A program made the translations under genes and the position numbers. This document shows, in pieces, positions 1,398-17,469 of a stretch of 23,272 bases of DNA; within the stretch, counting starts at the first letter, position 1; every line of letters starts with the position of its first letter. Source of the stretch: a virus; the IMG/VR virus record IMGVR_UViG_3300011187_000062, positions 1 through 23,272 of that record; one strand, given 5' to 3'. The notes under the pieces were generated by a model. That model was not told where the DNA came from and did no database searches. It was given only the letters and a program-made list of their open reading frames with translations.

Positions 1398-1894
1398 CCT
1401 TTGCCCCAGCGGTCGTCGCGCCGGTCGAAGGCTGCCCCGTGTCCTCGCCGCGTCAACTCTCGACTGAGGTAGAACTGGTCCTCCTTGAGGTTCTCGTAGT
1501 AGGCCCGGAACGCGCGTCGCTCGGCGTCAAGCATCTGGAACTTCTCCTTGGCCTCCGCTACGGCAGGGCTGGCGGTGGCGTAGGCCTTGGCCACGGTCAC
1601 CGACTCGATGTGGTGGTCGGTCAGCGCCGTGGAGAAGGTCTGCTCGTAGTCCTCCTCGGCCTGCTCTGCGTCGCTGATGCGCTCATTCAGCAGCGTGTTC
1701 ACGAACGCGGACCAAGCGACGAGTTCCCCGAACAGTTCCATCAGTTCGTGGTCGTCCAGTTCGTCCACGCTCCTCGTCAGGTTCGGCCGTCTCCCCTGCG
1801 GGCGCTCGTACGGCTCCAGACCTGCCTGCAGCAGCCTCCCGGCGGCGGCGTCGGCGTGACTCCGGCTTCCTGTCTTCCTCAGTCTCTTGCTCAT
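1394..1894 (-). CDS. Unknown coiled-coil phage protein overlapping the exonuclease gene
   Basis: About 166 residues, with no family I recognise. The N-terminus is basic (MSKRLRKTGSRSHADAAAG); from about residue 42 it becomes helical and acidic (SVDELDDHELMELFGELVAW), then a long E/K/A-rich stretch likely to form a coiled coil, and ends with D-R-R-D-D-R-W-G-K-G. I chose ATG at 1894 over an upstream in-frame codon at 1939 because it has a strong ribosome site, GAGAAGGA about 8 bases upstream. With that start, its first 212 bases overlap the 3' end of the Cas4-like gene in another frame. The stop overlaps the RuvC-like start as ATGA. The core sequence looks like an ordinary protein, so this frame is the better-supported one in the overlap. 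It may assist the neighbouring nucleases, but that rests on position only. Confidence 0.75.
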   Translation of the reverse strand: MSKRLRKTGSRSHADAAAGRLLQAGLEPYERPQGRRPNLTRSVDELDDHELMELFGELVAWSAFVNTLLNERISDAEQAEEDYEQTFSTALTDHHIESVTVAKAYATASPAVAEAKEKFQMLDAERRAFRAYYENLKEDQFYLSRELTRRGHGAAFDRRDDRWGKG

Positions 1895-2768: not shown

Positions 2769-3099
2769 CGCGTACCTCCGCGAGTAGTTCAGCGAGGTAG
2801 TTCAGGTCCACGATGGCGTAGTCGCCGCCCAACTCGAAGGCCAGCACGGGCTCTCGGCCCACCTGCCGTGCCTCTTTCTTGTGCTTGGAGAGGTCCTTGC
2901 GCTTGATGGTTATCTGCTCGGTGCCGTTGGTTCTCTTGCACTCCAGCAGGATGTAGTCCAGCGCCCGTGAGTCCTCACCGACGTGGCCGTCACCGTCCTG
3001 CTCGGGGCGCGAGCCGCTGTAGGCATGGCGCTTGCCTCCGAGCACCTTGGCGACGCGCTGCTCCTGCTCTCGGCTGTGCCTCATGTTCTGCTTGCTCAC
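2758..3099 (-). CDS. Small PD-(D/E)XK nuclease, Holliday-junction-resolvase-like
   Basis: A 113-residue protein starting at GTG 3099, which overlaps the recA stop as GTGA and has AGAGGA about 8 bases upstream. It has the compact PDDEXK layout: an N-terminal helix with basic residues (RHSREQEQRVAKVLGG), a GSRPEQDGDG loop supplying acidic ligands, and LLECKRT with the E53-x-K55 pair. A following helix is rich in Lys (IKRKDLSKHKKEARQ) and could contact DNA. Size and order match archaeal-type Hjc and phage VRR-NUC-like nucleases. It lies between RecA and the Cas4-like exonuclease, which supports a role in recombination or branched-DNA processing. The superfamily is fairly clear; the substrate is not. 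Confidence 0.72.
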   Translation of the reverse strand: MSKQNMRHSREQEQRVAKVLGGKRHAYSGSRPEQDGDGHVGEDSRALDYILLECKRTNGTEQITIKRKDLSKHKKEARQVGREPVLAFELGGDYAIVDLNYLAELLAEVRDEE

Positions 3100-4187
3100 G
3101 ACAGCATCCTCTCCCGCATCTCCTTGTCGATGCGCTGGTAGAGGCTCTCGTCCTCAAGGATGTTGGCGTAGGTCTTGTCCTTGCCCCGAGCAATCTGGTG
3201 CATGTCCTCGGTGCCGTCGTCGAAGTAGTAGTAGGCACCCTTGCGCACGATGACGTCGAGGAAGGAGGCAGTCATGAACAGGTCCTTGCCCCTGTCGATG
3301 TGCCCCTTCTCCACCTCGCCCCCGTCGTCGAAGTACATGTCGAAGACAGCGATGCGTCCCTCGGGGGCGGACTTGTTCTTCACGACCTTGGCTCGGACCT
3401 CGGAGCCGATAGGGATGTAGGTGGTGTTGCCGCGCGAGGTGTACTGCTTCTTGTCGGGGTGCTTGAGTGTCTCGGTGGCCGTCAACTCGACCCGTGTGAA
3501 GAAGGCGAAGTTCTTGGCCTTGCCACCCGGGGTGATGAGTGCCTCCTGCCCATGGGGAGCCCAGCCACCGACGTTGGCTCGGTACTGGTTGAGGATGATG
3601 CCCGTGACCGGGCGGTCCTCCACGATGAGGCTGCGCTTGCCAGCGTGCCTAATCTTGCGGAAGAACTTGCCAGTGATGCGAGCCTGCAGTGCGACCTGCA
3701 CGTCGATGATGTCCTTCTCGCGCTCCTCGTTGGGCACCAGCATCGGGAGGCTGTCAATGACTGCCATGTCCACGGAGCGCGCCTCGACGAAGGCAAGCAT
3801 GCGCTGCAGTGCCTCCTCCATGACGTTGGTCTCGATGAGGTGGACGCGGCTGTTGTCCACGCCCCACATGCGTGCGTAGGGAGCGACGTACTCCTCGGCT
3901 GCTACCCACACGACCTCGAAGTTGGGGTCGAGGGCTTGGTTGGCAGCGATGGTCTGCAGGGCCACCGCCGTCTTGCCGCTGGACTCGTAGCCGTAGATTT
4001 CACTCCACTGCTTGATGGGCCAGCCACCACCGAGGGCAGCGTCCATCGCGTAGATGCCCGTGGGCAGCCTGCGGATGGTCTGGTCCTGTAGGTCAGCGCC
4101 TCGCACGACGACTGGGTGGTCGGTGTCGAACTTGGAGTTGAGTTCGTCCGCGACCTCGGAGGCCGTCTTGCGGGGTGCTTCGCTCAT
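3096..4187 (-). CDS. recA: RecA-like recombinase
   Basis: A 363-residue RecA-family ATPase. Residues 42-62 carry the RecA-like lead-in LPTGIYAMDAALGGGWP, followed by Walker A GYESSGKT (66-73), a V-A-A-E-E segment in the position of the catalytic Glu, and Walker B DMAVIDSLPML. A GGKAKNFAFFTRVELT stretch corresponds to the core strand after loop L2. The C-terminus is acidic, as in bacterial RecA. I start at ATG 4187, which overlaps the zinc-ribbon stop as ATGA; the open frame extends 40 codons further upstream, but that part is a shadow of the zinc-ribbon gene. It should pair homologous DNA during phage recombination-dependent replication, together with the Cas4-like exonuclease and the resolvases downstream. 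Its GK-T site carries no intein, unlike three other genes here. Confidence 0.93.
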   Translation of the reverse strand: MSEAPRKTASEVADELNSKFDTDHPVVVRGADLQDQTIRRLPTGIYAMDAALGGGWPIKQWSEIYGYESSGKTAVALQTIAANQALDPNFEVVWVAAEEYVAPYARMWGVDNSRVHLIETNVMEEALQRMLAFVEARSVDMAVIDSLPMLVPNEEREKDIIDVQVALQARITGKFFRKIRHAGKRSLIVEDRPVTGIILNQYRANVGGWAPHGQEALITPGGKAKNFAFFTRVELTATETLKHPDKKQYTSRGNTTYIPIGSEVRAKVVKNKSAPEGRIAVFDMYFDDGGEVEKGHIDRGKDLFMTASFLDVIVRKGAYYYFDDGTEDMHQIARGKDKTYANILEDESLYQRIDKEMRERMLS

Positions 4188-4558
4188 GAGGCATTCAATC
4201 CGTGGGTGATGGGGTAGCCGCACTCGTAGCAGCGGGGCGTAGCAGGCTTGCCACCTGTCGCGCGGTTGCCACTGCGGATGTTCTCGAAGTAGTTGTGGCC
4301 ACCGCACTCAGGGCAGGTGCCGTCGTTGCCGGTCTCCACGCTCTTGCGCCGGATGCCGTCGTAGTTCTCGGAGTCGTGGATGCGGGCAGCGCCCTCGGTG
4401 ACGTCCTGCGGAGCGGCCTTGGCCTCGGGGCGCATGGGCATGCCCGACCCCTGCGCGGTGCGCTGCATGGGCGACTGCTGCTGTGGCGTAGTCGTGGCGG
4501 GAGGGGGCGCCGGGTTCCCGCCACCGCCCAACTTCTTGGACCACCAGTCGTTCGACAT
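4184..4558 (-). CDS. Zinc-ribbon protein with disordered N-terminus
   Basis: A 124-residue protein. Residues 1-60 are low-complexity Pro/Gln/Thr/Gly sequence, probably unstructured. The C-terminal part has two CxxC pairs, CPECGGHNYFENI and, near the end, CYECGYPITHG, which should bind one zinc ion as a ribbon. The start at ATG 4558 has a near-perfect ribosome site (TAGGAGG); that site overlaps the polymerase stop region. The stop overlaps the recA start as ATGA. Its position between DNA polymerase and RecA suggests a nucleic-acid or protein adaptor at the replication fork, but no specific activity can be read from the sequence. Confidence 0.85.
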   Translation of the reverse strand: MSNDWWSKKLGGGGNPAPPPATTTPQQQSPMQRTAQGSGMPMRPEAKAAPQDVTEGAARIHDSENYDGIRRKSVETGNDGTCPECGGHNYFENIRSGNRATGGKPATPRCYECGYPITHGLNAS

Positions 4559-4567
4559 CGTCGCCTC

Positions 4568-7500
4568 CTACTTCGCTTCGTTCCAGTTGCTCCCGTGCGC
4601 GGCCTCGGCCACCAGCGGGACGTCGATGGCCTCGACGGCCTCCATGGTCTCCTGCAAGAACACGGCGCAGTCTGGGGCCTCCTCCTCGGGAGCCATCAGC
4701 ATCAACTCGTCGTGCACCGTCAGCAGCATGTGCCAGTCAGGGTAGTCCTTGAGACCGTCCCCTACATCTAGCATTGCAAACTTGATGATGTCTGCAGCGG
4801 AGCCCTGAATCAGGGAGTTGACAGCCTGTCGCTCAGCGGCCGAACGCAACTCGCTGTCGCTCCACAGCAGGGCGGGGAGGTGCCTGCGGCGTCCCCCGAG
4901 CGTGGAGATGTAGGGGGTGGGCTGACGCTTGCGCGCCTTGTGGACCACGTAGCGGCTGAACTTGCCCACGAGCGGGAAGTCCTCGTCGTACTTCTTGCGG
5001 AAGGCCTTGATTTGGTTGATGGTCACGCCCAGACCGTTGGCGAGGTTCTCGTTGCCCGCGCCGTAAATCTGTGCGAAGTTGAAGGTGTTGTGGGTAAGCA
5101 CGTAGTCGCGCGTGACGTACAGAGAGTCGCCAGCCGCTACTCGGATGCACTGGGACATCTCGTCGGCGACGCGCTCGATGGACTCGACCCGGCGCAGGGC
5201 GCGAGCCTGCGGCTTCCACGAGGAGGCTTTACGGCTCATCCAAAAGGGGCACTGCCTCATGTTTACGTGGACCACGAAGGCAGGTAGGTGGGTCGTCGCC
5301 TTCTCTCTAAGCGTCGCGACGCCGCCTAAGGACTGCACCAGTGACACGACCGCCTCCGCCAGCGGCCGGGACGCCGACGAGAACCCGGCGCCGCTGCCCA
5401 GAGACACGACCCACCCGTCGGTATCCATGAGGCCCCGAAGAAGGTCCAGCCGCTGGTGCTCTGAGGCTACGAGGTACCCGTCCGGCACGAACTTGGTCTG
5501 GCTCTTCTCCCCCCACAACCCCATCTCTCGGAACAAGGTCTGCGCGGGGGCCGGGTGGACACCCACGCTCCCAGTAGTAACGGAGTAGTCGACGCCAGAG
5601 AGGTGGACTAGCGAGGTACCCGTAAAGGTCGTCTCCACCTCGTCCCTTACGCGGGCGACCACGTCGGCGTCCTCGCTGGAGAAGGACACACTCCCCCCTC
5701 GGAAGGAGCCGTCGCCTAGCAGCGCCCCCATAAGGTAGGGGGGGACTGGGAGCGCGGCGTGCGAGTGCTGCACCGGCGCGGCAAGGAGGGGGACCTCCCA
5801 CAGCCGCTCCATCCCTCGGGTGTCCCGTAGCCCACGGGCCAGCATCTCTCGGACGGTGACCGTCTTAGGTCGCCCCCGGAAACTAACCGACCACAGGTGC
5901 TCTTCGTCGCAGCGGGTACTCGACCCGTCGGAGAAGGTGACCCGGTACGTGGGACGCACCCCTTGGGGGAAGACGCCGCGCACCTCGGTGGGCTGCCCGT
6001 CCGAGCCGACGACAAAGTCCCCTACGACGAGAGAGCCCATCGGGACGAACCCTCGGTCCGGTGTTAGGACAGGCTCGTCCACCGGCTGGGCCTTGCCGAG
6101 GTCGCGTTCCTCGGGGGTGACCTCGTCGATGGCCTTGCCCAGCAGCATGGAGGCCACGGCAGCGTGCGGGTCGTACCCGTCCTCGAAGGCCTTGATGAGC
6201 GTGGGGTCGCCGCTGTAGTGGGCGAGCACCCTGTACTCAATCTGGCTGTAGTCAGCCACGATGAGGTGGTAGCCCGGGGGCGCCACGAACAACTTGCGCA
6301 TCAGGTGGGCGTGCTCGCCCCGGCGCGGGATGTTCTGAAGGTTAGGATCTGAACTACTGAAGCGTCCTGTGACGGTTCCCCATGGCTTGAGGTCGGTGTG
6401 GATGCGGCCGTCGATGATGAAGCGCCCGAGGCCTCCCTCGACGTCACCGTCCTCCATGGTCTCCCCGAGGTAGGAGGAGACCATCTTGTTGAACTCTCGG
6501 AAGTGCAGAATCTTGGCGGCGATGGGGTCCTTGTGCTCCAGCGCTGACAGCACCTCCTTGTCCGTGGAGGGGTCACCACCGTCGGTCATCTTGACCGGCT
6601 CGTTGTCGCGGTCCTCGAACAGCACCTCGCGCATCTGCACGGGGGAGTTGAGGTTGAAGATTTTCCCTGCCTCCGCGTACACGGCCTTCTCTGCCTCGTG
6701 CAGGTCCTTGGTGAAGACCTCGGAGATTTCGTACAGCGCCTCCTTGTTGACCGGCTGGCCCTCAAGGTGCATGTCCAGCAGGTACTCGTAGAGGTCCATC
6801 TCCGCGAGGTAGATGGTCTCCACGTCCTTGTGGAGTTCGAGGATGGGCCACAGGTCCTGCCAGAGCCACCACGTGTACATCGCGTCCAGCGCGGCGTAGC
6901 GGGCGACCTTGCCAAAGGGGTGCTTCTCGACCGCGCGCCCGACGTTCTCGTGGTCGTACTTGTGCCCGTAGCCGGGGAAGTGTCGGGGGTCTGAGGTCGA
7001 GACCTTGTTGCCCTTCTCGACCATGGACTTGAGACCCATGCGGCTGCCCTCGTCGATGAGGCGGGCCATGAACATGGTGTCGTCGTAGGGCGGGGCTGGC
7101 TTGGACGGCAGGTACTTGCTCACTGCCGCGAGGTCGTACAGCGAGTTGTGGCAGACCGTGACTATCTCTTCGCTCATGAAGAGAGGTTCAGCAATCTTCC
7201 AGAACTGGCTGTGCCGCAACTGCGGGGGCGCCGGGGTCCACTGGGCTGGCTCGGAGACCGAGCGGTACTGGGTCTTGGGGACCTTGGTGACCTCCGTCAG
7301 GACCTCAGGGTCGAAGTACTTCTCCCGGCGGGTGTAGGCACGCTTGACCAACTCCCCGTGGGGATGGCCCAGTGGTATGACGTCAACGCGCCCATGGGTA
7401 GCCATGGACAGCCACGTCACCTGAGCCAGAGCCCCGGTCCCCCTGTGCTCACCGACCGACTCCACATCGAAGGCGAAGGCCTCCTGCTGTAGGTAGTGGT

Positions 7501-7576
7501 CAATCAAGGCCTCGGCGTCTGCCTCCGTGGTGACGGTGGGCGTACGCGTGAGGCGCTGCACAGGGGGACGGTTCAT
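4568..7576 (-). CDS. polA: Family A DNA polymerase with 3'-5' exonuclease, interrupted by an intein
   Basis: The precursor is 1002 residues; removing the intein (496-830) leaves about 667. The proofreading domain shows Exo I D37-x-E39 (AFDVES), Exo II around N144/D148 (CHNSLYDL) and Exo III Y227-x-x-x-D231. There is no 5' nuclease domain, as in many phage polymerases. The polymerase part has TGRFSSSDPNLQNIP (403-417), motif A VADYSQIEYR with D442, motif B split by the intein (RDLGK / TFNFAQIYG) and motif C TVHDELM with H955-D956-E957. The residue matching E. coli F762 is Phe. It should be the phage replicative polymerase, active only after splicing, because K495 is the O-helix lysine that contacts the incoming nucleotide. 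ATG 7576 lies 4 bases after the stop of the ssDNA-binding-like gene, with GGAG about 10 bases upstream. The stop is TAG at 4568. Confidence 0.96.
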   Translation of the reverse strand: MNRPPVQRLTRTPTVTTEADAEALIDHYLQQEAFAFDVESVGEHRGTGALAQVTWLSMATHGRVDVIPLGHPHGELVKRAYTRREKYFDPEVLTEVTKVPKTQYRSVSEPAQWTPAPPQLRHSQFWKIAEPLFMSEEIVTVCHNSLYDLAAVSKYLPSKPAPPYDDTMFMARLIDEGSRMGLKSMVEKGNKVSTSDPRHFPGYGHKYDHENVGRAVEKHPFGKVARYAALDAMYTWWLWQDLWPILELHKDVETIYLAEMDLYEYLLDMHLEGQPVNKEALYEISEVFTKDLHEAEKAVYAEAGKIFNLNSPVQMREVLFEDRDNEPVKMTDGGDPSTDKEVLSALEHKDPIAAKILHFREFNKMVSSYLGETMEDGDVEGGLGRFIIDGRIHTDLKPWGTVTGRFSSSDPNLQNIPRRGEHAHLMRKLFVAPPGYHLIVADYSQIEYRVLAHYSGDPTLIKAFEDGYDPHAAVASMLLGKAIDEVTPEERDLGKAQPVDEPVLTPDRGFVPMGSLVVGDFVVGSDGQPTEVRGVFPQGVRPTYRVTFSDGSSTRCDEEHLWSVSFRGRPKTVTVREMLARGLRDTRGMERLWEVPLLAAPVQHSHAALPVPPYLMGALLGDGSFRGGSVSFSSEDADVVARVRDEVETTFTGTSLVHLSGVDYSVTTGSVGVHPAPAQTLFREMGLWGEKSQTKFVPDGYLVASEHQRLDLLRGLMDTDGWVVSLGSGAGFSSASRPLAEAVVSLVQSLGGVATLREKATTHLPAFVVHVNMRQCPFWMSRKASSWKPQARALRRVESIERVADEMSQCIRVAAGDSLYVTRDYVLTHNTFNFAQIYGAGNENLANGLGVTINQIKAFRKKYDEDFPLVGKFSRYVVHKARKRQPTPYISTLGGRRRHLPALLWSDSELRSAAERQAVNSLIQGSAADIIKFAMLDVGDGLKDYPDWHMLLTVHDELMLMAPEEEAPDCAVFLQETMEAVEAIDVPLVAEAAHGSNWNEAK
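5087..6091 (-). other. Class 3 intein with LAGLIDADG endonuclease, in DNA polymerase
   Basis: A 335-residue in-frame insertion at Lys495^Thr831 of the polymerase. It starts with Ala (AQPVDEPVLTP) rather than Cys or Ser and ends LTHN before a +1 Thr. The class 3 signature is complete: Trp67 in DEEHLW (block B), Cys315 in SQCIRVAAGDSLYV (block F) and Thr333 in LTHN (block G). The centre has two endonuclease motifs, LMGALLGDGS and LLRGLMDTDGW, with their acidic residues intact. Several codons are unusual for this genome (TTA, CTT, AGA, CTA), suggesting a source outside the current codon pool. In class 3 inteins the block F Cys makes the first attack and forms the branch point, so Ala1 is expected, not a defect. 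The boundaries follow from the conserved extein sequence on both sides. Confidence 0.95.
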
Positions 7577-7580
7577 GGGG

Positions 7581-8489
7581 TCAGGACTCCATCATCTCGT
7601 CGATGAGGTCTTCCAACTGCTTGTACGTCGGGAACGAGATGATGTCCTCGGTGTACGCGTTGGCAGTGAGTTCCTCGACCGCGTCCTCAGAGAGGGGGTC
7701 GAGGTCCCAGTCCTCGGGCAGGTCACGGTCACGAACCACCGAGCAGTTGGGGCTGTAGGAGCCCTTCGTGCCTGTGGCCATAATCTCCCAGTAGAACTTG
7801 GAGAGCGGGCCGTGACGACCCTCGTTGAGAGCCTTCAACTGGTCAGTCAGAGTGACGCCAGCACGCAGGACGCGGTACTCCCACTCGTCAAGGTCCTCGT
7901 TGAAGATGATGACGTTGAACATCACCTGCATGCGCGGACCGTCGTCGAGGAACTCGCACAGCGGGCAGTCTCCCACCTCGCCGTACTTGTCGGAGTCATC
8001 GTCGTCGTAGGGAAGGGGTGCGATGCACTCCCACCCAGCGCGGCCCTTGGGCTTGGCGTTAATCCAGTGCTGCGCGTAGGAGACGAAAGGCTCGTCCGCC
8101 ACGAACTTCACCAGCGTGAACTCCTCACCGGGCTTCCAGATGGTCTCCCGGGGCACGTAGTCACTGCTGCTGGACTTGGTGACAGCGTGCTGCTTGTCGG
8201 CTGCTCCCCAACCACGGCGACCGCGAGCCCGCTTGGGACCCTTGTCGTCATCGTCGGACTCTGCAGCACGACGACGGCTGGGACGATCGTCCTCAGCGCT
8301 GGCCCGTCGTCCCCTGCGGGAACCACGGCTCTCCTCTTCAGGAGACTCCTCAGTCTCCTCGTCCTCCTCATCCCTACGCGAGCCGCGAGTGCGACCACGT
8401 GAGCCTGAGGAGTCGCCTCGCCGCGATGGGCTGGGCTTCTCTTCTTCGGTGGTGCCGCGACGTGAGCCGCGACGTGTTGATGTCGCCAT
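7581..8489 (-). CDS. Putative single-stranded DNA-binding protein with charged disordered N-terminus
   Basis: A 302-residue protein. Residues 1-95 are a low-complexity mix of Arg/Ser and Glu/Asp blocks (for example RRGSRRGTTEEEKPSPSRRG), surely disordered. From about residue 110 it folds: an E-E-F-T-L-V-K-F strand, a GDCPLCEFL segment, then MFNVIIFNEDLDEWEYRVL, a G-P-L-S-K-F-Y-W motif and an acidic C-terminus. This pattern recalls phage proteins annotated as ssDNA-binding (gp32/gp2.5-like) that carry a C-P-x-C segment and an acidic tail; I cannot confirm it without a search. Position immediately before the polymerase fits. The ATG at 8489 has a strong ribosome site, AGGAGGG. The polymerase starts 4 bases after its stop, so both are probably made together. 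Confidence 0.72.
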   Translation of the reverse strand: MATSTRRGSRRGTTEEEKPSPSRRGDSSGSRGRTRGSRRDEEDEETEESPEEESRGSRRGRRASAEDDRPSRRRAAESDDDDKGPKRARGRRGWGAADKQHAVTKSSSSDYVPRETIWKPGEEFTLVKFVADEPFVSYAQHWINAKPKGRAGWECIAPLPYDDDDSDKYGEVGDCPLCEFLDDGPRMQVMFNVIIFNEDLDEWEYRVLRAGVTLTDQLKALNEGRHGPLSKFYWEIMATGTKGSYSPNCSVVRDRDLPEDWDLDPLSEDAVEELTANAYTEDIISFPTYKQLEDLIDEMMES

Positions 8490-8523
8490 GGGGTGACCCT
8501 CCTGTGGGGTGCTAGTTGGCGAG

Positions 8524-8545
8524 CCTGCGAACGGTTGCCCGCAGG
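8524..8545. repeat. Hairpin in the leader of the ssDNA-binding-like gene
   Basis: CCTGCG (8524-8529) pairs perfectly with CGCAGG (8540-8545) around a 10-base loop. It lies in the 97-base gap between the 103-residue gene and the ssDNA-binding-like gene, about 35 bases upstream of the latter's start. There is no T-run on either side, so it is not a standard terminator; it could be an mRNA processing or control structure. No convincing -35/-10 pair was seen in the gap. Confidence 0.4.
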
Positions 8546-8586
8546 GTTCTATGAAGTTGTACGGCAGGGGTGTGACACTGCCGGTG

Positions 8587-8898
8587 CTAGGAGCCGCGCT
8601 TCTTCTGCGCTACGGGCTCGTGGTCTGCCAGCCAGAGGGGTACGAACGTCTCCTCGGGCTCGACGATGTAGGGCTCGACGGCCTGCAACTCACCGAGCAG
8701 GGTGTCGTAGAGGTGACCCCGGACAGCGTTAGACAACTCCCCGAACGCCTCCTCGTGTCCTACGTCGCTGACGTAGACGTCCCACTCCTCGTCGGTGTAG
8801 CCGAGGTCGCGGTGGTTCATCGTGACGTGGGTGCTGGCCTCGTCCATCTCGTAGTTGCCGAGTCGAATCTTGAAGCCGTGTCCCATTGAGATTTGCAT
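8587..8898 (-). CDS. Unknown 103-residue phage protein
   Basis: No family recognised. The protein begins MQISMGHGFKIRLGNYEMDE, is acidic overall, and has a helical middle (EEAFGELSNAVRGHLYDTLL) and a short basic end (QKKRGS). There is no membrane segment. I chose ATG 8898 because GGAAGGAG lies about 7 bases upstream and because it forms TGATG with the stop of the tiny membrane gene, which implies coupled translation. A second ATG at 8886 is possible. The frame extends much further upstream, but that part is a shadow of the MerR-like gene. It ends 97 bases before the ssDNA-binding-like gene and may belong to the same transcript. Confidence 0.75.
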   Translation of the reverse strand: MQISMGHGFKIRLGNYEMDEASTHVTMNHRDLGYTDEEWDVYVSDVGHEEAFGELSNAVRGHLYDTLLGELQAVEPYIVEPEETFVPLWLADHEPVAQKKRGS

Positions 8899-8969
8899 CA
8901 GAGGACTCCTTCCAGCAGGGAGTAGACGACGATGAACGCGATTATGGACGCAACGGCGAACGCCCTCAT
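8898..8969 (-). CDS. 23-residue single-span membrane microprotein
   Basis: A very short frame of 23 codons: start MRAFAVAS, a hydrophobic run of Ala/Ile/Phe/Val/Tyr/Leu over residues 3-19, then L-E-G-V-L. One positive residue precedes the hydrophobic segment, so an N-in single transmembrane helix is likely. Support comes from context: its ATG overlaps the stop of the MerR-like gene (ATGA), its TGA overlaps the start of the next gene (TGATG), and GGAG sits 5 bases upstream. Without it there would be an unexplained 67-base gap in an otherwise overlapping run. The function is unknown; small phage membrane peptides often act in lysis timing or inhibition of a host membrane protein, but nothing here decides that. 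Confidence 0.62.
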   Translation of the reverse strand: MRAFAVASIIAFIVVYSLLEGVL

Positions 8970-9367
8970 CCCTGCTCCAGTCGCTCGAACAACTTGTGGG
9001 CACGCGCGGGGAAGTCGGTGTCCCCCACGGGCTTGCGAGACGAGGGGTCCAGCAGGTCTGCCTCGCGTGCCAGCATGAGCAGCCCCTTGATTTGCACCTC
9101 GGTGTAGAGGCGGTCCTTCTTCTTGCCGCTGGTGCGGAAGGTGGCCTCGGGAATCCATCCCTTGCGCTCCCACCGGCGGACGGTCTGAACGCTGCGGTTG
9201 AGCGCTGTCGCGAGCGAGCCGATGGCAAAGAACTCCACGGGCTTCCCGTTGACGAGGTACGACCGTGGGTCGATGCGCCACTCGGGGGCCTCGGGCTCGA
9301 CGGTGTCACCGCGTACGAGGCGGCGCACCTGCTTGGAGCCGGGGTAGGTCTTGGCCGGGTCGGTCAC
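8966..9367 (-). CDS. MerR-like helix-turn-helix DNA-binding protein
   Basis: About 133 residues from GTG 9367, chosen because it overlaps the upstream stop as GTGA and has AAAGAGGA about 7 bases upstream; an in-frame ATG 72 bases earlier lies inside the previous gene. Residues 46-73 read FFAIGSLATALNRSVQTVRR followed by WERKGWIP, the classic MerR/excisionase winged helix-turn-helix, and then a basic wing (TSGKKKDRLYTEVQIKGL). No ligand-binding domain follows, so it resembles phage excisionase-like or small regulatory proteins more than full MerR regulators. No integrase is visible in this window, so a role in excision is only a possibility; regulation of early genes is equally likely. Confidence 0.8.
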   Translation of the reverse strand: MTDPAKTYPGSKQVRRLVRGDTVEPEAPEWRIDPRSYLVNGKPVEFFAIGSLATALNRSVQTVRRWERKGWIPEATFRTSGKKKDRLYTEVQIKGLLMLAREADLLDPSSRKPVGDTDFPARAHKLFERLEQG

Positions 9368-9618
9368 GCTGGGTCCTCTTTGTAGTCGCGCACGAAACGA
9401 GAGATGCCGTCTTCGACCGTTATCCAGCCGATGCGCCATCCGTCGAAGTGATGGACCTCGACCTTGGGAGGTAGCACCTCGCCGCGCACCTCGGGGAAGA
9501 ACGGGGATAAGGCGAAGGACTTCTTCTCAGGGTCGAAGGGCCACTGCCTCTCGTACCAGTCCATCGCCTTGGCCACGACGGCGACCTCCACAGCGGTCAG
9601 GGAGTCTCCGGGCTTCAT
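9364..9618 (-). CDS. Unknown 84-residue protein
   Basis: No family recognised. It begins MKPGDSLTAVEVAVVAKAMD and contains several aromatic residues (DWYERQWPF, HHFDGWRIGW), suggesting a small folded alpha/beta protein, and ends FVRDYKEDPA. No membrane segment or metal motif is seen. ATG 9618 is chosen over GTG 9630 because it overlaps the upstream stop as ATGA, with AGGTGG about 8 bases upstream. The stop overlaps the GTG of the MerR-like gene. It belongs to the chain of coupled small genes downstream of the promoter near 10440. Confidence 0.72.
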   Translation of the reverse strand: MKPGDSLTAVEVAVVAKAMDWYERQWPFDPEKKSFALSPFFPEVRGEVLPPKVEVHHFDGWRIGWITVEDGISRFVRDYKEDPA

Positions 9619-9932
9619 GAGCCGTACCACCTGTCTGCGTGGGCTTCTGCGATGCGAAGGTCATCGACAGCACTGATGAGTCGAGACTCGGCGTCCTTGA
9701 CCTCACGCTCCCTGTCCGTGATGCGGTTCTTGAAGGTCTTCAGGTACTCCGCCTTGAACTTCGCCTTGGACTGCTCGATGGGAGTCTCGGGGGGCAGGGC
9801 TCGCATGCTCCCCCAGACAGAGGGGCTGACGAAGGTGTCACCGTCCCAGACCTCTCCGTCCTCGTTTACAGAGCCGGGACCCTTCAGGTCCGCAAGCACT
9901 GCGCTGGCTGTCATCTCGGTGTAGTCCGCCAT
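9615..9932 (-). CDS. Unknown 105-residue helical protein
   Basis: No family recognised. The N-terminal part (MADYTEMTASAVLADLKGPG, then V-W-D-G-D-T-F) looks compact; residues 55-100 are charged and helical (KAKFKAEYLKTFKNRITDRE and an acidic/basic heptad-like tail), probably a coiled coil. It ends D-R-W-Y-G-S. ATG 9932 forms TGATG with the stop of the 148-residue gene and has GGAGAAGAAG just upstream. The end overlaps the next gene as ATGA. Translational coupling on both sides implies the products are needed together. Confidence 0.74.
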   Translation of the reverse strand: MADYTEMTASAVLADLKGPGSVNEDGEVWDGDTFVSPSVWGSMRALPPETPIEQSKAKFKAEYLKTFKNRITDREREVKDAESRLISAVDDLRIAEAHADRWYGS

Positions 9933-10378
9933 CACTTCTTCTCCATGGTGAGTGCCCACGAGACCTTCTGGTCAACGACAGAGTTGAGTTCGGCCTCGGA
10001 AATCTTGCCCTCGAATACTGCGGCGCTCAGGGCGTCCTCGTCCAGCACGCGGACCGTCTTGGTCACGTCCTTGTAGAGGCCCTTGTCCTTGAGCATGGCC
10101 ATCAACTCGTCCTCGCGGAAGGACTGGCTCACGCGCTTCTCGCGCTTGAACGCCTTGATGCCAGTGGCTGCCACGATGTCGTCAGGCAGGGAGAGCAACT
10201 GGTGCCCGCCCTCAATCTCAGTGCCTGTGGACGACACACGGTCGATGAGGCGGTCGCGCAAGTCCTTGATGCGACCACCCAGTTCCTTGTGGGTGTCCTT
10301 GAGCGTGACGTACTGCCGAGCCTCCTCTGGGAGGGGGTCGGTGCCGGTGCGGACGAGGACCTTCTTCTTGCTGCTCAT
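9932..10378 (-). CDS. Unknown 148-residue protein, first gene after an internal promoter
   Basis: No family recognised. Start MSSKKKVLVRTGTDPLPEEA; residues 25-50 form a likely coiled coil (TLKDTHKELGGRIKDLRDRL), then a basic segment (IKAFKREKRVSQSF) and an acidic helical C-terminal part ending SWALTMEKK. ATG 10378 has GGGAG about 7 bases upstream. It is the first gene of the run transcribed from the candidate promoter at 10426-10454, with a leader of roughly 40 bases. Its product may be an early phage protein made in larger amounts than the helicase upstream. Confidence 0.78.
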   Translation of the reverse strand: MSSKKKVLVRTGTDPLPEEARQYVTLKDTHKELGGRIKDLRDRLIDRVSSTGTEIEGGHQLLSLPDDIVAATGIKAFKREKRVSQSFREDELMAMLKDKGLYKDVTKTVRVLDEDALSAAVFEGKISEAELNSVVDQKVSWALTMEKK

Positions 10379-10425
10379 GTGGGACTCCCGATAAGTCGTG
10401 TGTGTCAGTTACGGGTGGAAGAACG

Positions 10426-10454
10426 AGGATACAGGCGGGTACAGGCCATGTCAA
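10426..10454 (-). promoter_or_regulatory. Sigma-70-like promoter (TTGACA-17-TATCCT)
   Basis: On the minus strand TTGACA (10454-10449) is a perfect -35 hexamer. It is followed by a 17-base spacer and TATCCT (10431-10426), which matches the -10 consensus at positions 1, 2, 3 and 6. The -35 overlaps the stop codon of the SNF2-type helicase. Transcription would start near 10418 and give a leader of about 40 bases before ATG 10378, carrying a good ribosome site. This is the best promoter match I saw in the window, and it lies in one of the few real intergenic gaps. Confidence 0.68.
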
Positions 10455-13024
10455 CCAGCCTGTGCAAGAAAGTCCTTCAACGTGCCTATGTCGTCCATGA
10501 CCAACTCCCCTGTGTCGTCGAAGTCGCCGTCCATGATGGCGCCGTCGAGCGCCTGCTTCTTGCGCAGCACCGCGTACTGCCTCTCCTCCAGCGAGCCCTC
10601 GGTGATGAAGTCCCGGATGTGGATGGTGGGGAAGGTGCTGCTCAGGCGCTGGATGCGGAAGTTGCGCTGCTTGAGGCGCCCCGCGCTCCACGGCAGGTCG
10701 TAGTTGATGAGGTAGTTGGCCACGGGCAGGTCCACGCCGACGCCCCCGGCCTCACTGGAGAGGAACACGCGGCAGTCGGGGTCGGTCTTGAACTCGTTGC
10801 GCACGTCCTGCTTGACGCGGTTGGACATCTTGCCGGTGTGCGTGATGGACCTGATGCCTCGCTTGCCCAGTTCCTCGTGGAGCCAGTCCAGCGTCGGCAA
10901 GAAGAAGGAGAACAGCACCACCTTGTTCACCGGATCGTCCTCCATGACCTTCTCTATGTAGTCGAGCACGTCGTCGAACTTGGTGGCGGGGGGCAGGTCG
11001 TCGAGCCACCCACGTCCATGAATCTCAGCGGCGTACTTGCTGCCGGTGTTCTCGGTGGGGGAGTTGAAGCGCCGGGCGCTCTCCACCAGCAACTGCGGGT
11101 GGTCGCACAGCATCAGCAGGCACTGCATGCGGCTCATGATGCGCCCGCGCTGCGCGAGTTCAGCAGGAGAGGCGGAGGAGTCTGAGGAGTAGTGGTCCTC
11201 CAGCGAGAAGGACATCCCGGCCCCGGCTGCTGCTGCCAGTTCAACCTGCAGGTCGGTGGAAATCTGGTTGTACAGCGTGCGCATCTTGCGTCGCTGAGCC
11301 ACGAGGACAGCCTGCTGCTCGCGGCCGGGCAGGTACTCCTTGATGTCCTCGTAGGAGTAGCGGACCATCGCCTCCTGCATGGTGTTGTGCAGGAGCGGGA
11401 GGTTGACGTACTTCTCCACCCAGCCGTAGCGGTTGCGGCTGATGAAGGTCTTGTCGAAGCGCCGCCAGTGTCCGAGCACGGAGTCGTCCACCCACTCCAT
11501 GATGGAGAACAGTTCCTCAGCCTTGTTGTCGATGGCCGTACCCGTGAGCCCGAAGCGGTAGCGGGGCAGCAACTGCTTGACCCGCTTGGAGCGCTGGGCC
11601 TTGAAGGACTTGATGGCCTGCACCTCATCGCAGACGAGGAAGTCCATGGGCAGCGAGGCAATCTCGTCCCAGTCGTTGAGCAACTGCATGTAGTTGACGA
11701 TGACGTACTCGTAGCGAGGAGCGCGGGCGTACTGTTCCGCGCGCTGGGAGGGCGTCCCGTCGATGACCAGCACACGGGCGACGTCGGTGAACTCCTCGAA
11801 CGCCTCCAGCCACTGGAACTTCACGGCAGCGGGGACCACGACCAGCCCTGACTCGACCTCGCCGGACTCAATCAGGCGCTCGATGGCAGCGATGGTCATC
11901 ACGGTGTTGTGGGTGACGATGTGGTCCTTGGTGACATAGAGGGAGTCCTCGGCAGCCACCTTGATGCACTGGACCTCCTCGACCCCGTCCTCCTCGATGC
12001 TCACGATGCTTCGACGGGGCCCGTACTTGGTCGGGGTAGTGACTGCTGACTGCTTCCGATTGAGACGGAAGAACTCCAGCCCCTCCCACACGGTGAAGGT
12101 GACCCTGTGGGAGTCGCGGTGCGACGTGGTCTTCCTCCGCAGGTAGGGGGACCCTCCGAAGGACCGAACGAGGTCAGCCACAGCCTCAGCGAGTTGCAGG
12201 CTTGCCGAGGAGAACTCGATGCAGGTCCCTGTGCGCGCACCATCCACCGAGCCGTCCGTATCCAGCAGACCCTGCAGCAGTGCAAGGCGCTGCGATGCCG
12301 ACGACCGCAGGTAGACCTCGGGGACGAACTTCTCGTGCGCCTTGTGTCCGTACACCCCGAGTTGGCGAAGGCGGTCGAGGAGGGGGTTGTTGCGCTGCCC
12401 CCGGTAGACGATGTGGTAGTCGTAGTCTCCCTCTCTCCGCGTCTCAACGTCACCTTCGGGGGCGAGTGCGAGGACCCAGCCAGTGAGTTCGGGATCTGCT
12501 GTGGACAGGGTGACTCGGTTGTGTAGAAGACATCCGTCGCCCAGCAGGAGCCCAAGGAGGTAGGGGTCCACCATGAGGTCGCGCTCGGGGTGGTCCACCA
12601 CTCCTGCCATGGGGATGAAGAAGCGTGAGTTGCCGTGCTTGTCCAACGTCCCATTGGCCCGGATATCGTTGGTGGTCATGACCCTGAGAGGGCGGTCGTT
12701 GTAGCGGTCCTGCGCGGTATGCACCGCCCACAGGTGCTCGCTGTCACAGCGCGTGGACGAGCCATCGGAGAAGGTCACCCGATAGACCCCACGACGCCCC
12801 TGCGGGAACACACCAACCACCTCAGTGGGCTTCCCGTCCGAGCCCACGACCTCGTCGCCCACCTGCAGCGACCCCATGGGCACGAAGCCCTCGGGCGTGA
12901 GCACAGGCTCTGACACAGGCTGCGCCTTGCCCGAGCCCATGATGGCGGCCAGCAGCATCGACTCGCGCTCCAGCATGCGCTGGACGGCGTCCTCCTGAAA
13001 CGGCTTGAGGGTCCCGGTGAACAT
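10451..13024 (-). CDS. SNF2-type DNA helicase/ATPase interrupted by an intein
   Basis: The precursor is 857 residues; without the intein (34-373) about 517 remain. Walker A is split: IMGSGK (28-33) / TVMTIAA. Later SF2 motifs are C-D-E-V-Q-A-I-K (DEVQ at 466-469), GLTGTAIDN (about 492), the second-lobe strand NKVVLFSFFLPTLDWLHEEL, HTGKMSNR, FLSSEAGGVGVDLPVANYLI (motif V) and QRNFRIQR (motif VI, with the arginine fingers). Motif order and spacing match phage SNF2/RapA-type DNA translocases. The likely role is remodelling forks or recombination intermediates. ATG 13024 forms TGATG with the primase stop; the ribosome site is poor (a run of G), so coupling probably matters. The stop codon region contains the -35 of the next promoter. 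Confidence 0.93.
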   Translation of the reverse strand: MFTGTLKPFQEDAVQRMLERESMLLAAIMGSGKAQPVSEPVLTPEGFVPMGSLQVGDEVVGSDGKPTEVVGVFPQGRRGVYRVTFSDGSSTRCDSEHLWAVHTAQDRYNDRPLRVMTTNDIRANGTLDKHGNSRFFIPMAGVVDHPERDLMVDPYLLGLLLGDGCLLHNRVTLSTADPELTGWVLALAPEGDVETRREGDYDYHIVYRGQRNNPLLDRLRQLGVYGHKAHEKFVPEVYLRSSASQRLALLQGLLDTDGSVDGARTGTCIEFSSASLQLAEAVADLVRSFGGSPYLRRKTTSHRDSHRVTFTVWEGLEFFRLNRKQSAVTTPTKYGPRRSIVSIEEDGVEEVQCIKVAAEDSLYVTKDHIVTHNTVMTIAAIERLIESGEVESGLVVVPAAVKFQWLEAFEEFTDVARVLVIDGTPSQRAEQYARAPRYEYVIVNYMQLLNDWDEIASLPMDFLVCDEVQAIKSFKAQRSKRVKQLLPRYRFGLTGTAIDNKAEELFSIMEWVDDSVLGHWRRFDKTFISRNRYGWVEKYVNLPLLHNTMQEAMVRYSYEDIKEYLPGREQQAVLVAQRRKMRTLYNQISTDLQVELAAAAGAGMSFSLEDHYSSDSSASPAELAQRGRIMSRMQCLLMLCDHPQLLVESARRFNSPTENTGSKYAAEIHGRGWLDDLPPATKFDDVLDYIEKVMEDDPVNKVVLFSFFLPTLDWLHEELGKRGIRSITHTGKMSNRVKQDVRNEFKTDPDCRVFLSSEAGGVGVDLPVANYLINYDLPWSAGRLKQRNFRIQRLSSTFPTIHIRDFITEGSLEERQYAVLRKKQALDGAIMDGDFDDTGELVMDDIGTLKDFLAQAG
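11906..12925 (-). other. Class 3 intein with LAGLIDADG endonuclease, in SNF2-type helicase
   Basis: A 340-residue in-frame insertion between Lys33 and the Thr of the Walker A box. It starts AQPVSEPVLTPEG and ends IVTHN, with +1 Thr. Signature residues are Trp66 (DSEHLW), Cys320 (VQCIKVAAEDSLYV) and Thr338 (VTHN). The endonuclease motifs are LLGLLLGDGC and LLQGLLDTDGS. The N-terminal splicing segment matches the polymerase intein with only about ten substitutions and one gap over 66 residues, yet synonymous positions differ widely, so this is not a recent copy. Codon use looks closer to the surrounding genes than in the other two inteins. Splicing would restore GSGKT, without which the helicase cannot bind ATP. 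Confidence 0.95.
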
Positions 13025-13974
13025 CAGTGCCCCCGGGGCATCAGCAGGGTGCTCTTGGCTGTGTCCATGCTGTAGTCGATGTCCTCGTTCGACATGTCGC
13101 CGGGGTCCTTGGCGCGGGAGCCCTCGTAGTTGAAGACGCGCACGGGCATCCTGCGCCCCAGCCTCTCTATCAACTCACGGGTCACGCGGTGGCCAGCGGC
13201 ATCGTTGTCCAGCGCCAGCACCAGCGAGTCCACGGACTTGAGCAGGAGGGCAATCTGCTCGTCGCTTATCTCCACGCCGTAGGTGGCCAGCCCGCCCTCG
13301 TAGCCAGCGGTGGCCAGCCTGACAGCGTCCAGCGGGGACTCCACGAGGATGCCCCGGGACGCGGACAGGTTGTGCACGCCGAAGAGGAACTCACGCTTTC
13401 GGACCTTGGCGGGCTCGTTGTCGAAGCCGCCGTCCCACTTGCGCTGCCACCCCTTGACCCGACCGTCGGCTGCGATGAAGGGGATAATCCAGTGGGCCTT
13501 GCCCTCGTCCCAGCGGACCTTGAACCGGTCGCAGGCCTCGGCTGTCAGGTTGCGCTTGTCGAGCGCGAGCGGGGGCGGCTCGGAGAACAGCACGAACTTG
13601 AAGTCGGGGTCGGTGCCGTCAATGAGACCTGCCTCGACGTGGCTCTTCTTGACCTTGCGGTCGATGCGGTCGATGGCGTCGACCAGCGTGGCACCACGGT
13701 CGCGCAGCCATCCCGAGGCAGCCCACGCGTCGTTGGAGAAGAAGTAGCGGGCGACCATGTTGGTCAGCGTGTCGCCGTAGCCACACGAGAAGCAGTAGCA
13801 CATGCCACTGTCCATGTTCACCGAGAAGTTGGTCGGGCTGGTGTCCTGCTTCCCGAGGCGCTCGTAGTGCGCAGGGCACAGGGACCAGACCTCGTCATCG
13901 GTGGTGCGCCCCACACCCATGCCGAGTTCGTCGAGGACCGCCTCGACGTCTTCGGGGACCAGCACGAGTGCCAT
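13024..13974 (-). CDS. DnaG-like DNA primase
   Basis: A 316-residue primase, shorter than bacterial DnaG (about 600), as is usual in phages. The zinc-binding domain shows C33-P-A-H36 and C59-Y-C61-F-S-C64, a CHC2-like set. The TOPRIM domain has GILVESPLDAVRL with E212, then L-A-T-Y-G-V-E-I and LVLALDNDAAGH with D256 and D258, which bind the catalytic metals. There is no extra helicase-binding domain after TOPRIM, only about 50 residues. ATG 13974 overlaps the DnaB stop as TGATG, and its own stop forms TGATG with the helicase start, so DnaB, primase and the SNF2-type helicase are translationally linked. It should make RNA primers at the phage fork with the intein-bearing DnaB. Confidence 0.93.
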   Translation of the reverse strand: MALVLVPEDVEAVLDELGMGVGRTTDDEVWSLCPAHYERLGKQDTSPTNFSVNMDSGMCYCFSCGYGDTLTNMVARYFFSNDAWAASGWLRDRGATLVDAIDRIDRKVKKSHVEAGLIDGTDPDFKFVLFSEPPPLALDKRNLTAEACDRFKVRWDEGKAHWIIPFIAADGRVKGWQRKWDGGFDNEPAKVRKREFLFGVHNLSASRGILVESPLDAVRLATAGYEGGLATYGVEISDEQIALLLKSVDSLVLALDNDAAGHRVTRELIERLGRRMPVRVFNYEGSRAKDPGDMSNEDIDYSMDTAKSTLLMPRGH

Positions 13975-16262
13975 CAGATGTCCGTCCCATCGAACCCGCT
14001 GAAGTCCTCAGCCTCGTCCTCCGCGACCTCCAGCAGGACGCCGGTCTTGTTGAAGTCCCAGACGTAGACGGCCGTGGTTGGTGTGCCCGTACGCGTGAGG
14101 TCGATGGTGTATCGCTTCTTGCGCACGTCCTCCTCGTCGGTGTTGATGGTGATGAGCACGTCGGAGTCCTGCAGGTACGACGAGGAGTAGCCGGTGCTGC
14201 TCGCGGTCACGCCGTGCTTCTTGGTGGTCTTCCACCCCAGCGCCTGCGTGGTGATGACGATGGGGACGTCGCTCTTCTGGGCCAGCCGCTTCAGGCTGCG
14301 GGTGATGTTGGTCAGCGCCTGCGGGGAGCCGGTGTCCTCACCCTGCTCGTCATCCATCATGTAGACCCCGTCGATGAAGACGATGTCGGGGTTGTGGGTC
14401 TCAATCTGGCTGGCTATGGCGGTGACGGTGGTCATCGAGTGGGGGTCCTCCGCGATGATGAACCCGCCCATGTTGCGCTCGCGGTAGCGGAAGGACTTCT
14501 GCACCTTCTTGCGCTCGCTGCTCCGCAGGCGCCCCTGCTGCATGCGCGTCAGCGAGACATGGGAGTTCAGCGCGTGGTAGCGCTCCTCCTGCTCGGTCAC
14601 GCTCATCTCGAAGGACACGAACAGCGGCCGGTACCCCCAGCGGCTGGCCTCGATGGCAGACCTCAGGGTGACCAGAGAGTTGTGGGTTACGACGTAGTCC
14701 TCGGTCACGTACAGGGAGTCATCGGCTGCCACCGTGATGCACTGGGAGTCCTGTGGCTCAACCTCCTCGACGGAGACAATCCGTCGTGACGGCGGCCTCT
14801 TCTGTGCCGACCCCGTCGCGGCCCAAGCCTCCGACTTCCGAGCCAACCCGAAGGGAGAGCCGGCCTCAGTCGGGAGCCTGATGGACACGGTGTACGACAC
14901 CCTGTGCTCGCCCTCCTTGGGGCGCACCGTGGCAACCCCACCGAGTCCCCGAACCAAGTCGCACACGCCGTCCCGAAGACCTTCGCTAGACGTGTAGAAG
15001 CACACGGACTTGCCGTTCATACCCCCGTCGGCGTCCATAAGCCCCCGCAGCAACTCCATCCTGTTCGCAGGAGAACTGCGCAGGTACACCTCGGGGATGA
15101 ACTTATCCACGGAGAAGCGACCCCATAGGCCGAGCGTCTTAAGCGCGCTGACAACAGGGTTGTGAGGCATCGAGCCTTTGTTGAACCGTACGACCCAGTG
15201 GTTGTCCGTCTGCGAGGTGCTCGTGGCTCCGGGGGAAGACACCTCCGCGTACCGGACCAGCACCTCGTCCCCCGACGAAAGAGTCGGGCCTCCCGGCCGG
15301 AAAGAGCCGTCGCCGAGGAGGAGGCCCATAAGCCGAGGCTCCAAGAGCAGGTGGCTCGTCGCTGAGAACTGAGAGACACCGGCTACGGGCACATACAGGT
15401 CCCGTGTCTTGCCGCTCGACAGGAGGGCAAGCACCTCTACCGTGGTAAGAACCCGCTCCTTCTTGTTGTGCGGGAGCGTCTGCCACAGATGCTCTCCGCA
15501 CGCCTCGGTGGACCCGCCGTCGGAGAACGACACGCGGTAAGTGGGGACGACCCCTTGGGGGTGGACAGCCTCCACGCGAGTGGGGGCTCCACTGCTTCCG
15601 ATGACGAAGTCCCCTACGGCTAGGCGACCCATCTGCCTCCACCCGTAAGGGGTCAGCACAGGCGTAGTCAGAGGCTGCGCCTTACCGCTCTTGGGCAGGC
15701 CGGTGATGGTCACCAACTGCTGAGGCCTCAGGCCACCGAGGTTGTGGTCCAGCGCGGGCAGACCGAGGGGGATGCCCTTGATGGAGCGGTTGTCCTTCGC
15801 GTCAGCGAGGTACTTCATCCACCACTCAGAGCCCCTACGAGCGATGTCGACCGCCCGAAGGTTGCCCCCGCGCTCGTGGTAGTCCTGCAGCATCACCGAC
15901 AGGGTTGCTGCGGCGCGGTCCATATCGGTCTTGGAGACGCGCTCGTCGGTGTCTATCTCACCAGCGGCTTCGCGGATGCCGTCGAACAGCAGGCCGAAGC
16001 GGGTGTCGTTGAGCACCTCGGTGACGTAGTACGACAGGGGCTCGGAGGCCTCGGGGTCGTGCAGCAGCGCGTCAGGGAAGTCCTGCTCCACGGTCTTGCG
16101 GGTGGGCAGTTCCTTGTGGTCCAGCCAGAACTCGCGGACGAACTCGAACGCCTTGCGCGGCGCGTCCTCGTGGAAGTCCTTCTGGGTGATGCCTTCGTCG
16201 ATTATCTGCTTGAAGTCGCCATCCCGCAGGAGGGCTGTCAGCAGTGAGCGTGGGGCATCCAT
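13974..16262 (-). CDS. dnaB: DnaB-family replicative helicase interrupted by an intein
   Basis: The precursor is 762 residues; without the intein (195-528) about 428 remain, typical for a phage DnaB. The N-terminal part is helical (LLTALLRDGDFKQIIDEGIT) as in the DnaB N-domain, with a linker that precedes GLPALDHNLGGLRPQQLVTI. Walker A is split: GLPKSGK (188-194) / SLVTL. The C-extein carries FVSFEMS (motif H1a), DIVFIDGVYM (Walker B, H2), VITTQALG (H3) and a late TYSSSYLQDSDVLI-like sensor region (sequence STGYSSSYLQDSDVLI). It should be the hexameric fork helicase, loaded by the DnaC-like protein two genes upstream. ATG 16262 forms TGATG with the preceding stop; the stop overlaps the primase start. 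Confidence 0.95.
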   Translation of the reverse strand: MDAPRSLLTALLRDGDFKQIIDEGITQKDFHEDAPRKAFEFVREFWLDHKELPTRKTVEQDFPDALLHDPEASEPLSYYVTEVLNDTRFGLLFDGIREAAGEIDTDERVSKTDMDRAAATLSVMLQDYHERGGNLRAVDIARRGSEWWMKYLADAKDNRSIKGIPLGLPALDHNLGGLRPQQLVTITGLPKSGKAQPLTTPVLTPYGWRQMGRLAVGDFVIGSSGAPTRVEAVHPQGVVPTYRVSFSDGGSTEACGEHLWQTLPHNKKERVLTTVEVLALLSSGKTRDLYVPVAGVSQFSATSHLLLEPRLMGLLLGDGSFRPGGPTLSSGDEVLVRYAEVSSPGATSTSQTDNHWVVRFNKGSMPHNPVVSALKTLGLWGRFSVDKFIPEVYLRSSPANRMELLRGLMDADGGMNGKSVCFYTSSEGLRDGVCDLVRGLGGVATVRPKEGEHRVSYTVSIRLPTEAGSPFGLARKSEAWAATGSAQKRPPSRRIVSVEEVEPQDSQCITVAADDSLYVTEDYVVTHNSLVTLRSAIEASRWGYRPLFVSFEMSVTEQEERYHALNSHVSLTRMQQGRLRSSERKKVQKSFRYRERNMGGFIIAEDPHSMTTVTAIASQIETHNPDIVFIDGVYMMDDEQGEDTGSPQALTNITRSLKRLAQKSDVPIVITTQALGWKTTKKHGVTASSTGYSSSYLQDSDVLITINTDEEDVRKKRYTIDLTRTGTPTTAVYVWDFNKTGVLLEVAEDEAEDFSGFDGTDI
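14679..15680 (-). other. Class 3 intein with LAGLIDADG endonuclease, in DnaB
   Basis: A 334-residue in-frame insertion between Lys194 and Ser529 of DnaB. It starts AQPLTTPVLTPYG and ends VVTHN, with +1 Ser. The signature is Trp66 (CGEHLW), Cys314 (SQCITVAADDSLYV) and Thr332 (VTHN). Endonuclease motifs LMGLLLGDGS and LLRGLMDADGG are intact. It has several A/T-rich codons and shares short exact DNA stretches with the polymerase intein, for example AAGTCCCCTACG at 15607-15618 and 6015-6026 (plus strand), which the helicase intein lacks. Class 3 inteins at this P-loop site are known in phage DnaB proteins, so this one has precedent. Splicing rebuilds GKS of the ATP-binding loop. Confidence 0.95.
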
Positions 16263-17283: not shown

Positions 17284-17469
17284 CGAGAGTTCCTCTGCGT
17301 ATCTGGCGTCGAGTGGTGCTTCGCGGTTCCAACAACCAACCCCTGCATCCACCGCAGGCCCGAGGAAGGGCCAAGGACACAGGGGCTAGTCGTTGGTGGC
17401 CTACTTTGGGATGTTGGCTTCTCGGGACCGACACACAAACGGAGACCACTGCTGACGCTAACGGACGGG
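17284..17469. other. 186-base intergenic region between initiator and helicase loader
   Basis: No open frame of note. It holds two overlapping hairpins: CCTGC (17342-17346) with GCAGG (17354-17358), and GGCCC (17357-17361) with GGGCC (17368-17372); the two share bases and could be alternatives. No T-run follows and I saw no convincing -35/-10 pair. The loader's ribosome site is at its left end. It may hold mRNA control structures or initiator binding sites. Confidence 0.45.

Follow-up and report, generated by a model that had tools for sequence, protein, structure and literature searches.

Three full-length, apparently intact class 3 LAGLIDADG inteins very probably reside in the replication block of an uncultured phage that is a distant relative of the Streptomyces Borockvirus group. 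Their host proteins are a family A DNA polymerase, a helicase of the SNF2 type, and a replicative helicase of the DnaB type. In the window, i.e., the whole stretch of viral DNA analyzed here (a virus record of 23,272 bases), all replication genes are located on the minus strand, in the order DnaB, primase, SNF2-type helicase, SSB-position protein, family A polymerase, RecA, and Cas4. The features are as follows:

1683..2768, minus strand: Cas4-type exonuclease, uninterrupted (phrog_2506 exonuclease, E 2.9e-22; same order in GiJojo)
3096..4307, minus strand: RecA/UvsX-like recombinase, uninterrupted (Pfam RecA, E 4.3e-36)
4568..7576, minus strand: family A DNA polymerase with a 3'-5' exonuclease domain (Pfam DNA_pol_A, E 9.5e-105; DNA_pol_A_exo1, E 1.3e-12)
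5087..6091, minus strand: predicted class 3 LAGLIDADG intein of the polymerase, 335 aa (aa 496-830); A1, H65, W67, C315, T333, H334, N335, +1 Thr
7581..8489, minus strand: protein in the position of the GiJojo SSB, directly before the polymerase (named by position only)
10451..13024, minus strand: SNF2-type helicase (Pfam SNF2-rel_dom, E 1.9e-28; Helicase_C, E 8.7e-16), collinear with intein-free relatives
11906..12925, minus strand: predicted class 3 LAGLIDADG intein of the SNF2-type helicase, 340 aa (aa 34-373); A1, W66, C320, T338, +1 Thr
13024..13974, minus strand: DNA primase (Toprim), uninterrupted, between DnaB and SNF2 (Toprim_2, E 3.3e-13; phrog_47, E 5.2e-35)
13974..16262, minus strand: DnaB-type replicative helicase (Pfam DnaB_C, E 1.7e-19), collinear with intein-free relatives
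14679..15680, minus strand: predicted class 3 LAGLIDADG intein of DnaB, 334 aa (aa 195-528); A1, W66, C314, T332, +1 Ser

The true start of the recombinase gene is probably inside the open reading frame at 3096..4307. Pfam and PHROG searches with the 7581..8489 protein returned no match. Two other uninterrupted genes were observed on the minus strand: a DnaC-like helicase loader upstream of DnaB (16687-17352) and a RuvC-like Holliday junction resolvase downstream of Cas4 (798-1397). In the polymerase, SNF2, and DnaB precursors, it is the intein portion that is hit by PHROG models named terminase, primase, and DnaC-like loader, so intein sequence within these models leads to false gene names. 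Many intein-bearing phage records are labeled terminase or DarB-like.

Predicted splicing would shorten the polymerase precursor from 1002 to 667 aa, the SNF2 precursor from 857 to 517 aa, and the DnaB precursor from 762 to 428 aa, compared to 678, 522, and 430 aa for the intein-free proteins of phage GiJojo. The PF00476 match in the polymerase (E 9.5e-105) falls into two stretches, and the polymerase extein aligns collinearly through the intein junction with the intein-free PolA proteins of phages BRock, GiJojo, and pSt2308.

Class 3 inteins are defined by a non-nucleophile start, a His-x-Trp in block B, a Cys in block F, a Thr-His-Asn end, and Ser, Thr, or Cys at +1 (PMC3196547, PMC7664689). 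All three inserts begin with Ala-Gln-Pro and end with Thr-His-Asn; Ala1 leaves each of them without Cys, Ser, or Thr at position 1. Each has the WCT set (Trp at B:12, Cys at F:4, and Thr at G:5), and the block B His (B:10) is located two residues N-terminal of the Trp in every case. The +1 residue is Thr in the polymerase and SNF2 and Ser in DnaB. In aligned columns, all 57 relatives that were compared show the same WCT residues. The LAGLIDADG motifs, at positions 120 and 218 (polymerase), 123 and 217 (SNF2), and 117 and 211 (DnaB), are LMGALLGDG/LRGLMDTDG, LLGLLLGDG/LQGLLDTDG, and LMGLLLGDG/LRGLMDADG, respectively, with an acidic residue at motif position 8. The first-pass annotation of this DNA had described three class 3 inteins in these three genes, each starting with Ala and lacking a Cys/Ser1 nucleophile, carrying W67/C315/T333, W66/C320/T338, and W66/C314/T332, and keeping both LAGLIDADG motifs. 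The inserts were found at the places it gave, with 5087 and 15680 being the outer ends of the polymerase and DnaB inteins, every residue number was reproduced exactly, and both motifs are intact with their acidic residues in all three.

Pairwise, the three inteins are 42 to 47% identical over their full length (E 1e-66 to 1e-85), and each matches Pfam LAGLIDADG_3 (PF14528) above the gathering score. A profile built from the three matches the solved class 3 inteins 6rix, 6riy, and 6bs8 from the DnaB proteins of M. chimaera and M. smegmatis (E 1e-14 to 1e-15), as well as the endonuclease domain of PI-SceI. Together, the full-length identity, the Pfam matches, and the profile matches to solved class 3 inteins exclude a chance origin. 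The polymerase intein was also modeled with AlphaFold2 using 15 sequences (mean pLDDT 91.2, pTM 0.89). In Foldseek searches, this model matched PI-SceI along its length (E 1.6e-18), while its splicing domain matched the class 3 DnaB inteins 6riy and 6rix (MchDnaB-1; target TM-scores of 0.74 to 0.80) and 6bs8 (MsmDnaB). The polymerase intein is thus predicted to have the Hint fold, and 42 to 47% identity to the other inteins points to the same fold in the SNF2 and DnaB inteins. Overall, the class 3 assignment holds in every test available at the level of sequence.

All three inteins are inserted after Gly-Lys and before Thr or Ser. The polymerase intein splits the O-helix (DLGK|TFNF), and the other two split Walker A motifs (MGSGK|T in SNF2 and PKSGK|S in DnaB). 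A GK|T or GK|S site is also found in 35 of 57 collected class 3 relatives, and the P-loop is a classic intein position (PMC5050341). Among polymerase relatives, 7 of 66 have GK|T at the place of the intein, and 28 of 66 have Thr at +1, suggesting that the look-alike site arises naturally in this family.

Based on the class 3 mechanism (PMC3196547, PMC5222942, PMC7664689), we infer that each host protein would be made as an inactive precursor, since the intein follows the catalytic Lys and so interrupts the ATP-binding loop of DnaB and SNF2 or the nucleotide-binding O-helix of the polymerase. Activation by the block B His would enable the block F Cys to attack the Lys-Ala bond, and the N-extein would be transferred to the +1 Thr or Ser. 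Asn cyclization would then free the intein, and the exteins would be joined as GK-T or GK-S. The endonuclease domain would cut empty alleles of co-infecting phages, and this cutting would allow the intein to spread by homing.

Such empty alleles were sought among relatives of the window phage. In BRock (Borockvirus), GiJojo, and pSt2308, the replication genes are arranged as in the window, and the PolA, SNF2, and DnaB homologues are 32 to 40% identical to those of the window; in contrast, all three genes are uninterrupted. The order DnaB, primase, SNF2, SSB position, PolA, RecA, and Cas4 is common to the window and Borockvirus-type phages. The window phage is therefore a distant relative of the Streptomyces Borockvirus group, but its membership in the genus Borockvirus is unlikely because protein identity is just 32 to 40% over a 23-kb fragment. 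Searches with a polymerase profile made from exteins only, without intein sequence, yielded 66 further viral loci. When these loci and the three Streptomyces phages were assessed, restricting each count to loci that cover the site, inteins were found in 0 of 66 polymerases, 0 of 48 SNF2 proteins, and 0 of 44 DnaB proteins; some of the loci are near-copies of one another, and the counts are thus not wholly independent. The largest insert anywhere among these homologues is 24 aa. All empty alleles come from distant homologues (23 to 48% protein identity), and a search of viral contigs for the window's own polymerase site in its empty form (DLGKTFNFAQIYG or close variants of it) gave no match. 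Since the relatives are empty and a single record, L003, is near-identical to the window, the three insertions appear to be private to the window lineage as far as the collections show. The SGK|S of the window's DnaB Walker A corresponds to a degenerate motif, PKASK|S or NK|T, in many relatives (L073-L075 and kin).

L003 is 99.95% identical to the window over 11,360 bases; both the SNF2 intein and the DnaB intein are present in it, and a single amino acid within them differs. It ends at window base 6217, 126 bases short of the polymerase intein, and therefore gives no independent confirmation of that intein, which is known from one assembly alone. Presence in one contig only is consistent with an assembly chimera. 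However, the junctions are exact and in frame, the exteins are collinear on both sides, and two of the three inteins recur in L003 at 99.95% identity, leaving a chimera a negligible probability. It is highly improbable, too, that class 1 or class 2 inteins were misread as class 3. The same O-helix site does hold class 1 inteins, which start with Cys, in the polymerases of other viruses (L007 and L009-L012), but the Ala start and the W, C, and T at class 3 positions are seen in all three window inteins, and their nearest relatives carry the same set. Class 2 inteins lack the WCT set. The inteins could also be dead or poor splicers, like the class 3-like intein Arth_1007 of Arthrobacter FB24, an inactive member of the class 3 clade (PMC3196547). 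In Arth_1007 the block F Cys is missing, while the window inteins keep it, together with all other catalytic residues and an open frame. Moreover, the active-site motifs of three replication proteins are interrupted, and a dead intein should thus be costly. Dead or poorly splicing inteins are therefore very unlikely, and three intact class 3 inteins remain the reading that we adopt.

The origin of the inteins is less clear-cut. In the tree of full sequences, the polymerase and SNF2 inteins are sisters (support 96/52), the DnaB intein is unplaced, and the polymerase intein of contig L013 stands apart from that of the window. The N-terminal splicing domains of the polymerase and SNF2 inteins are 82.6% identical, with the next best match for either at 66 to 68%, and relative to endonuclease identity this pair is the strongest outlier of 1770 pairs (z 4.35). 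In contrast, their endonuclease domains are 37% identical and are not nearest neighbors. In trees based on the endonuclease only, each of the three groups weakly with a different outside intein, including the SNF2 endonuclease with an SNF2-like intein of another phage, L042 (85/64), and the DnaB endonuclease with Phrappuccino gp2 (94/88). Fourfold sites of the polymerase and SNF2 inteins are 41% identical compared to about 36% expected; being near saturation, they indicate that the link is old and nothing about it recent. Recent gene conversion between the two was rejected on the same grounds. AU constraint tests rejected neither a single origin nor several, and one clade is neither supported nor rejected. 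We read these data as an old shared splicing domain combined with endonuclease domains of separate or faster-diverging history.

A competing account, which concerns the origin of the inteins and not their class, is spread within the genome: one of the polymerase and SNF2 inteins would have arisen long ago by ectopic copying of the other, and the O-helix would have served as a target owing to the likeness of its GK|T to a Walker A loop. The sister grouping, the outlying similarity of the splicing domains, and the emptiness of all relatives at these sites are consistent with it. The 37% identity of the endonucleases, which are nearer to outside inteins (L042 and Phrappuccino gp2), and the near-saturated synonymous sites argue against it, and the AU tests reject neither view; we regard such spread as possible but doubtful. 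A more specific course is unlikely: a class 3 intein that targets Walker A would have moved within one genome, from the P-loop of a helicase to the look-alike GK|T of the polymerase O-helix, keeping its splicing domain but gaining a different endonuclease, with the result that three replisome proteins rely on one splicing chemistry. Slightly favored overall is the view that the inteins arrived separately at GK|T/S sites that resemble one another, and that the splicing domains of the polymerase and SNF2 inteins go back to an old common source.

Matches to these inteins occur in more than 500 of 50,697 annotated phage records, and the hosts of class 3 relatives include SNF2/DarB-like helicases, terminases, PhoH, and an RNA polymerase beta subunit, among others. 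In addition, at least three matching inteins with the class 3 C-terminal signature are present in each of two phages, Pseudomonas phage EL and Raoultella phage VB_ZK_P1 (block B and start residues were fully checked in four of the six), and two of those in EL are about 3 kb apart. The view of the first-pass annotation, which named DnaB-type proteins as known hosts of class 3 inteins and held one in an SNF2-type helicase to be unusual, was therefore wrong: the Deinococcus Snf2 intein is a classic case, and many phage SNF2/DarB-like helicases carry them. Novelty can thus be claimed neither for the SNF2 intein nor for multi-intein phages as such. The search that the annotation had suggested, for class 3 inteins in phage polA and SNF2-type genes, gave many of the latter and, among family A polymerases in the collections scanned, just L013.

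In a tblastn search with the whole precursor (best 5000 records, ranked best first), the arrangement of polymerase plus intein was found in 0 of 50,697 annotated phage records at ≥80% precursor coverage among the matches listed. An apparent match in Erythrobacter phage L02 was rejected, the gene being of SNF2 type. Viral contigs were scanned with a pattern joining an intein end to the O-helix, which sees only polymerases whose O-helix fits it. Among 2.9 million contigs, this revealed one class 3 intein in a family A polymerase (L013) and six polymerases with non-class 3 inteins at the same O-helix site (L007-L012); five of the latter start with Cys, and that of L008 is truncated at the N-terminal end. 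To find more polymerase inteins, patterns with a Gly-Phe or T7-like O-helix were also scanned, and these produced only unrelated genes or nothing. A scan of genome contigs gave six relatives only, mostly weak or partial, the best being a Geodermatophilus locus, and the phrase "polA intein" was not found in a literature search. Apart from the unrelated contig L013, the family A polymerase thus looks new as a host gene of class 3 inteins. The suggested unusual concentration stands as regards three class 3 inteins in one replisome with a family A polymerase among the hosts; genomes with several inteins have precedents in EL and VB_ZK_P1.

The family A DNA polymerase, at its catalytic O-helix, joins the known homes of class 3 inteins. 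One lineage with three inteins and dozens of relatives with none provide a natural before/after comparison. If a splicing domain did jump between non-homologous genes, it would show a route into new genes that is rarely caught. Since the helicases and the polymerase would all depend on one Cys chemistry, redox or metal stress, to which the DnaB inteins of mycobacteria are reported to be sensitive, may affect replication as a whole.

Among known systems, the closest parallel to the polymerase intein is L013 (IMGVR_UViG_3300013357_000095), a class 3 polymerase intein at the O-helix (AK|T) with the AQP start and THN end. It is 37% identical to the window intein and is not its sister in the tree; the polymerases themselves are 32% identical over 207 aa. 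The class 1 inteins of L007 and L009-L012 share the viral family A polymerase host and the O-helix site but differ by their Cys start, and the APSE-1 DNA polymerase intein shares a phage family A-type host but starts with Cys and is located at a different site. The polymerase of L007 (IMGVR_UViG_3300012982_000018) apparently has two inteins, the Cys-start one at the O-helix (K|C) and another upstream that ends in VHN before SSNPNLQQLP. L028 (IMGVR_UViG_3300015195_000005) has two class 3 inteins at different sites of one 1299-aa open reading frame. In the relatives L063-L065, the splicing part alone was matched, with an AQP start after TAGK; these may contain another endonuclease or none.

For the SNF2 intein, the characterized counterpart is the Deinococcus radiodurans Snf2 intein, described as an experimentally studied class 3 intein (Brace et al. 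2010, as cited in PMC3196547). It resembles the window intein in the class 3 signature and SNF2-type host, a likeness at the level of class and host rather than residue by residue, and differs in that its host gene is bacterial. The nearest outside relative of the SNF2 intein, at 46% identity by BLAST, is that of L042/L044, at MGAGK|T of a 1299-aa open reading frame in large phages; L044 and L003 come from the same metagenome. The inteins of mycobacteriophage Phrappuccino gp2, GX15bay PhoH, and Pseudomonas phage PhiPA3 SNF2 are class 3 LAGLIDADG inteins 36 to 42% identical to at least one window intein, but their hosts are other than family A polymerases. Last, the Mycobacterium DnaB class 3 inteins (MsmDnaB1, 6bs8; MchDnaB1, 6rix/6riy; PMC7664689, PMC5222942) share the Hint fold and the His/Trp/Cys/Thr set, and the MsmDnaB1 site is after GVGK and before Ser. 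They are mini-inteins of about 139 to 145 aa without an endonuclease, whereas the window inteins are 334 to 340 aa long and contain LAGLIDADG motifs.
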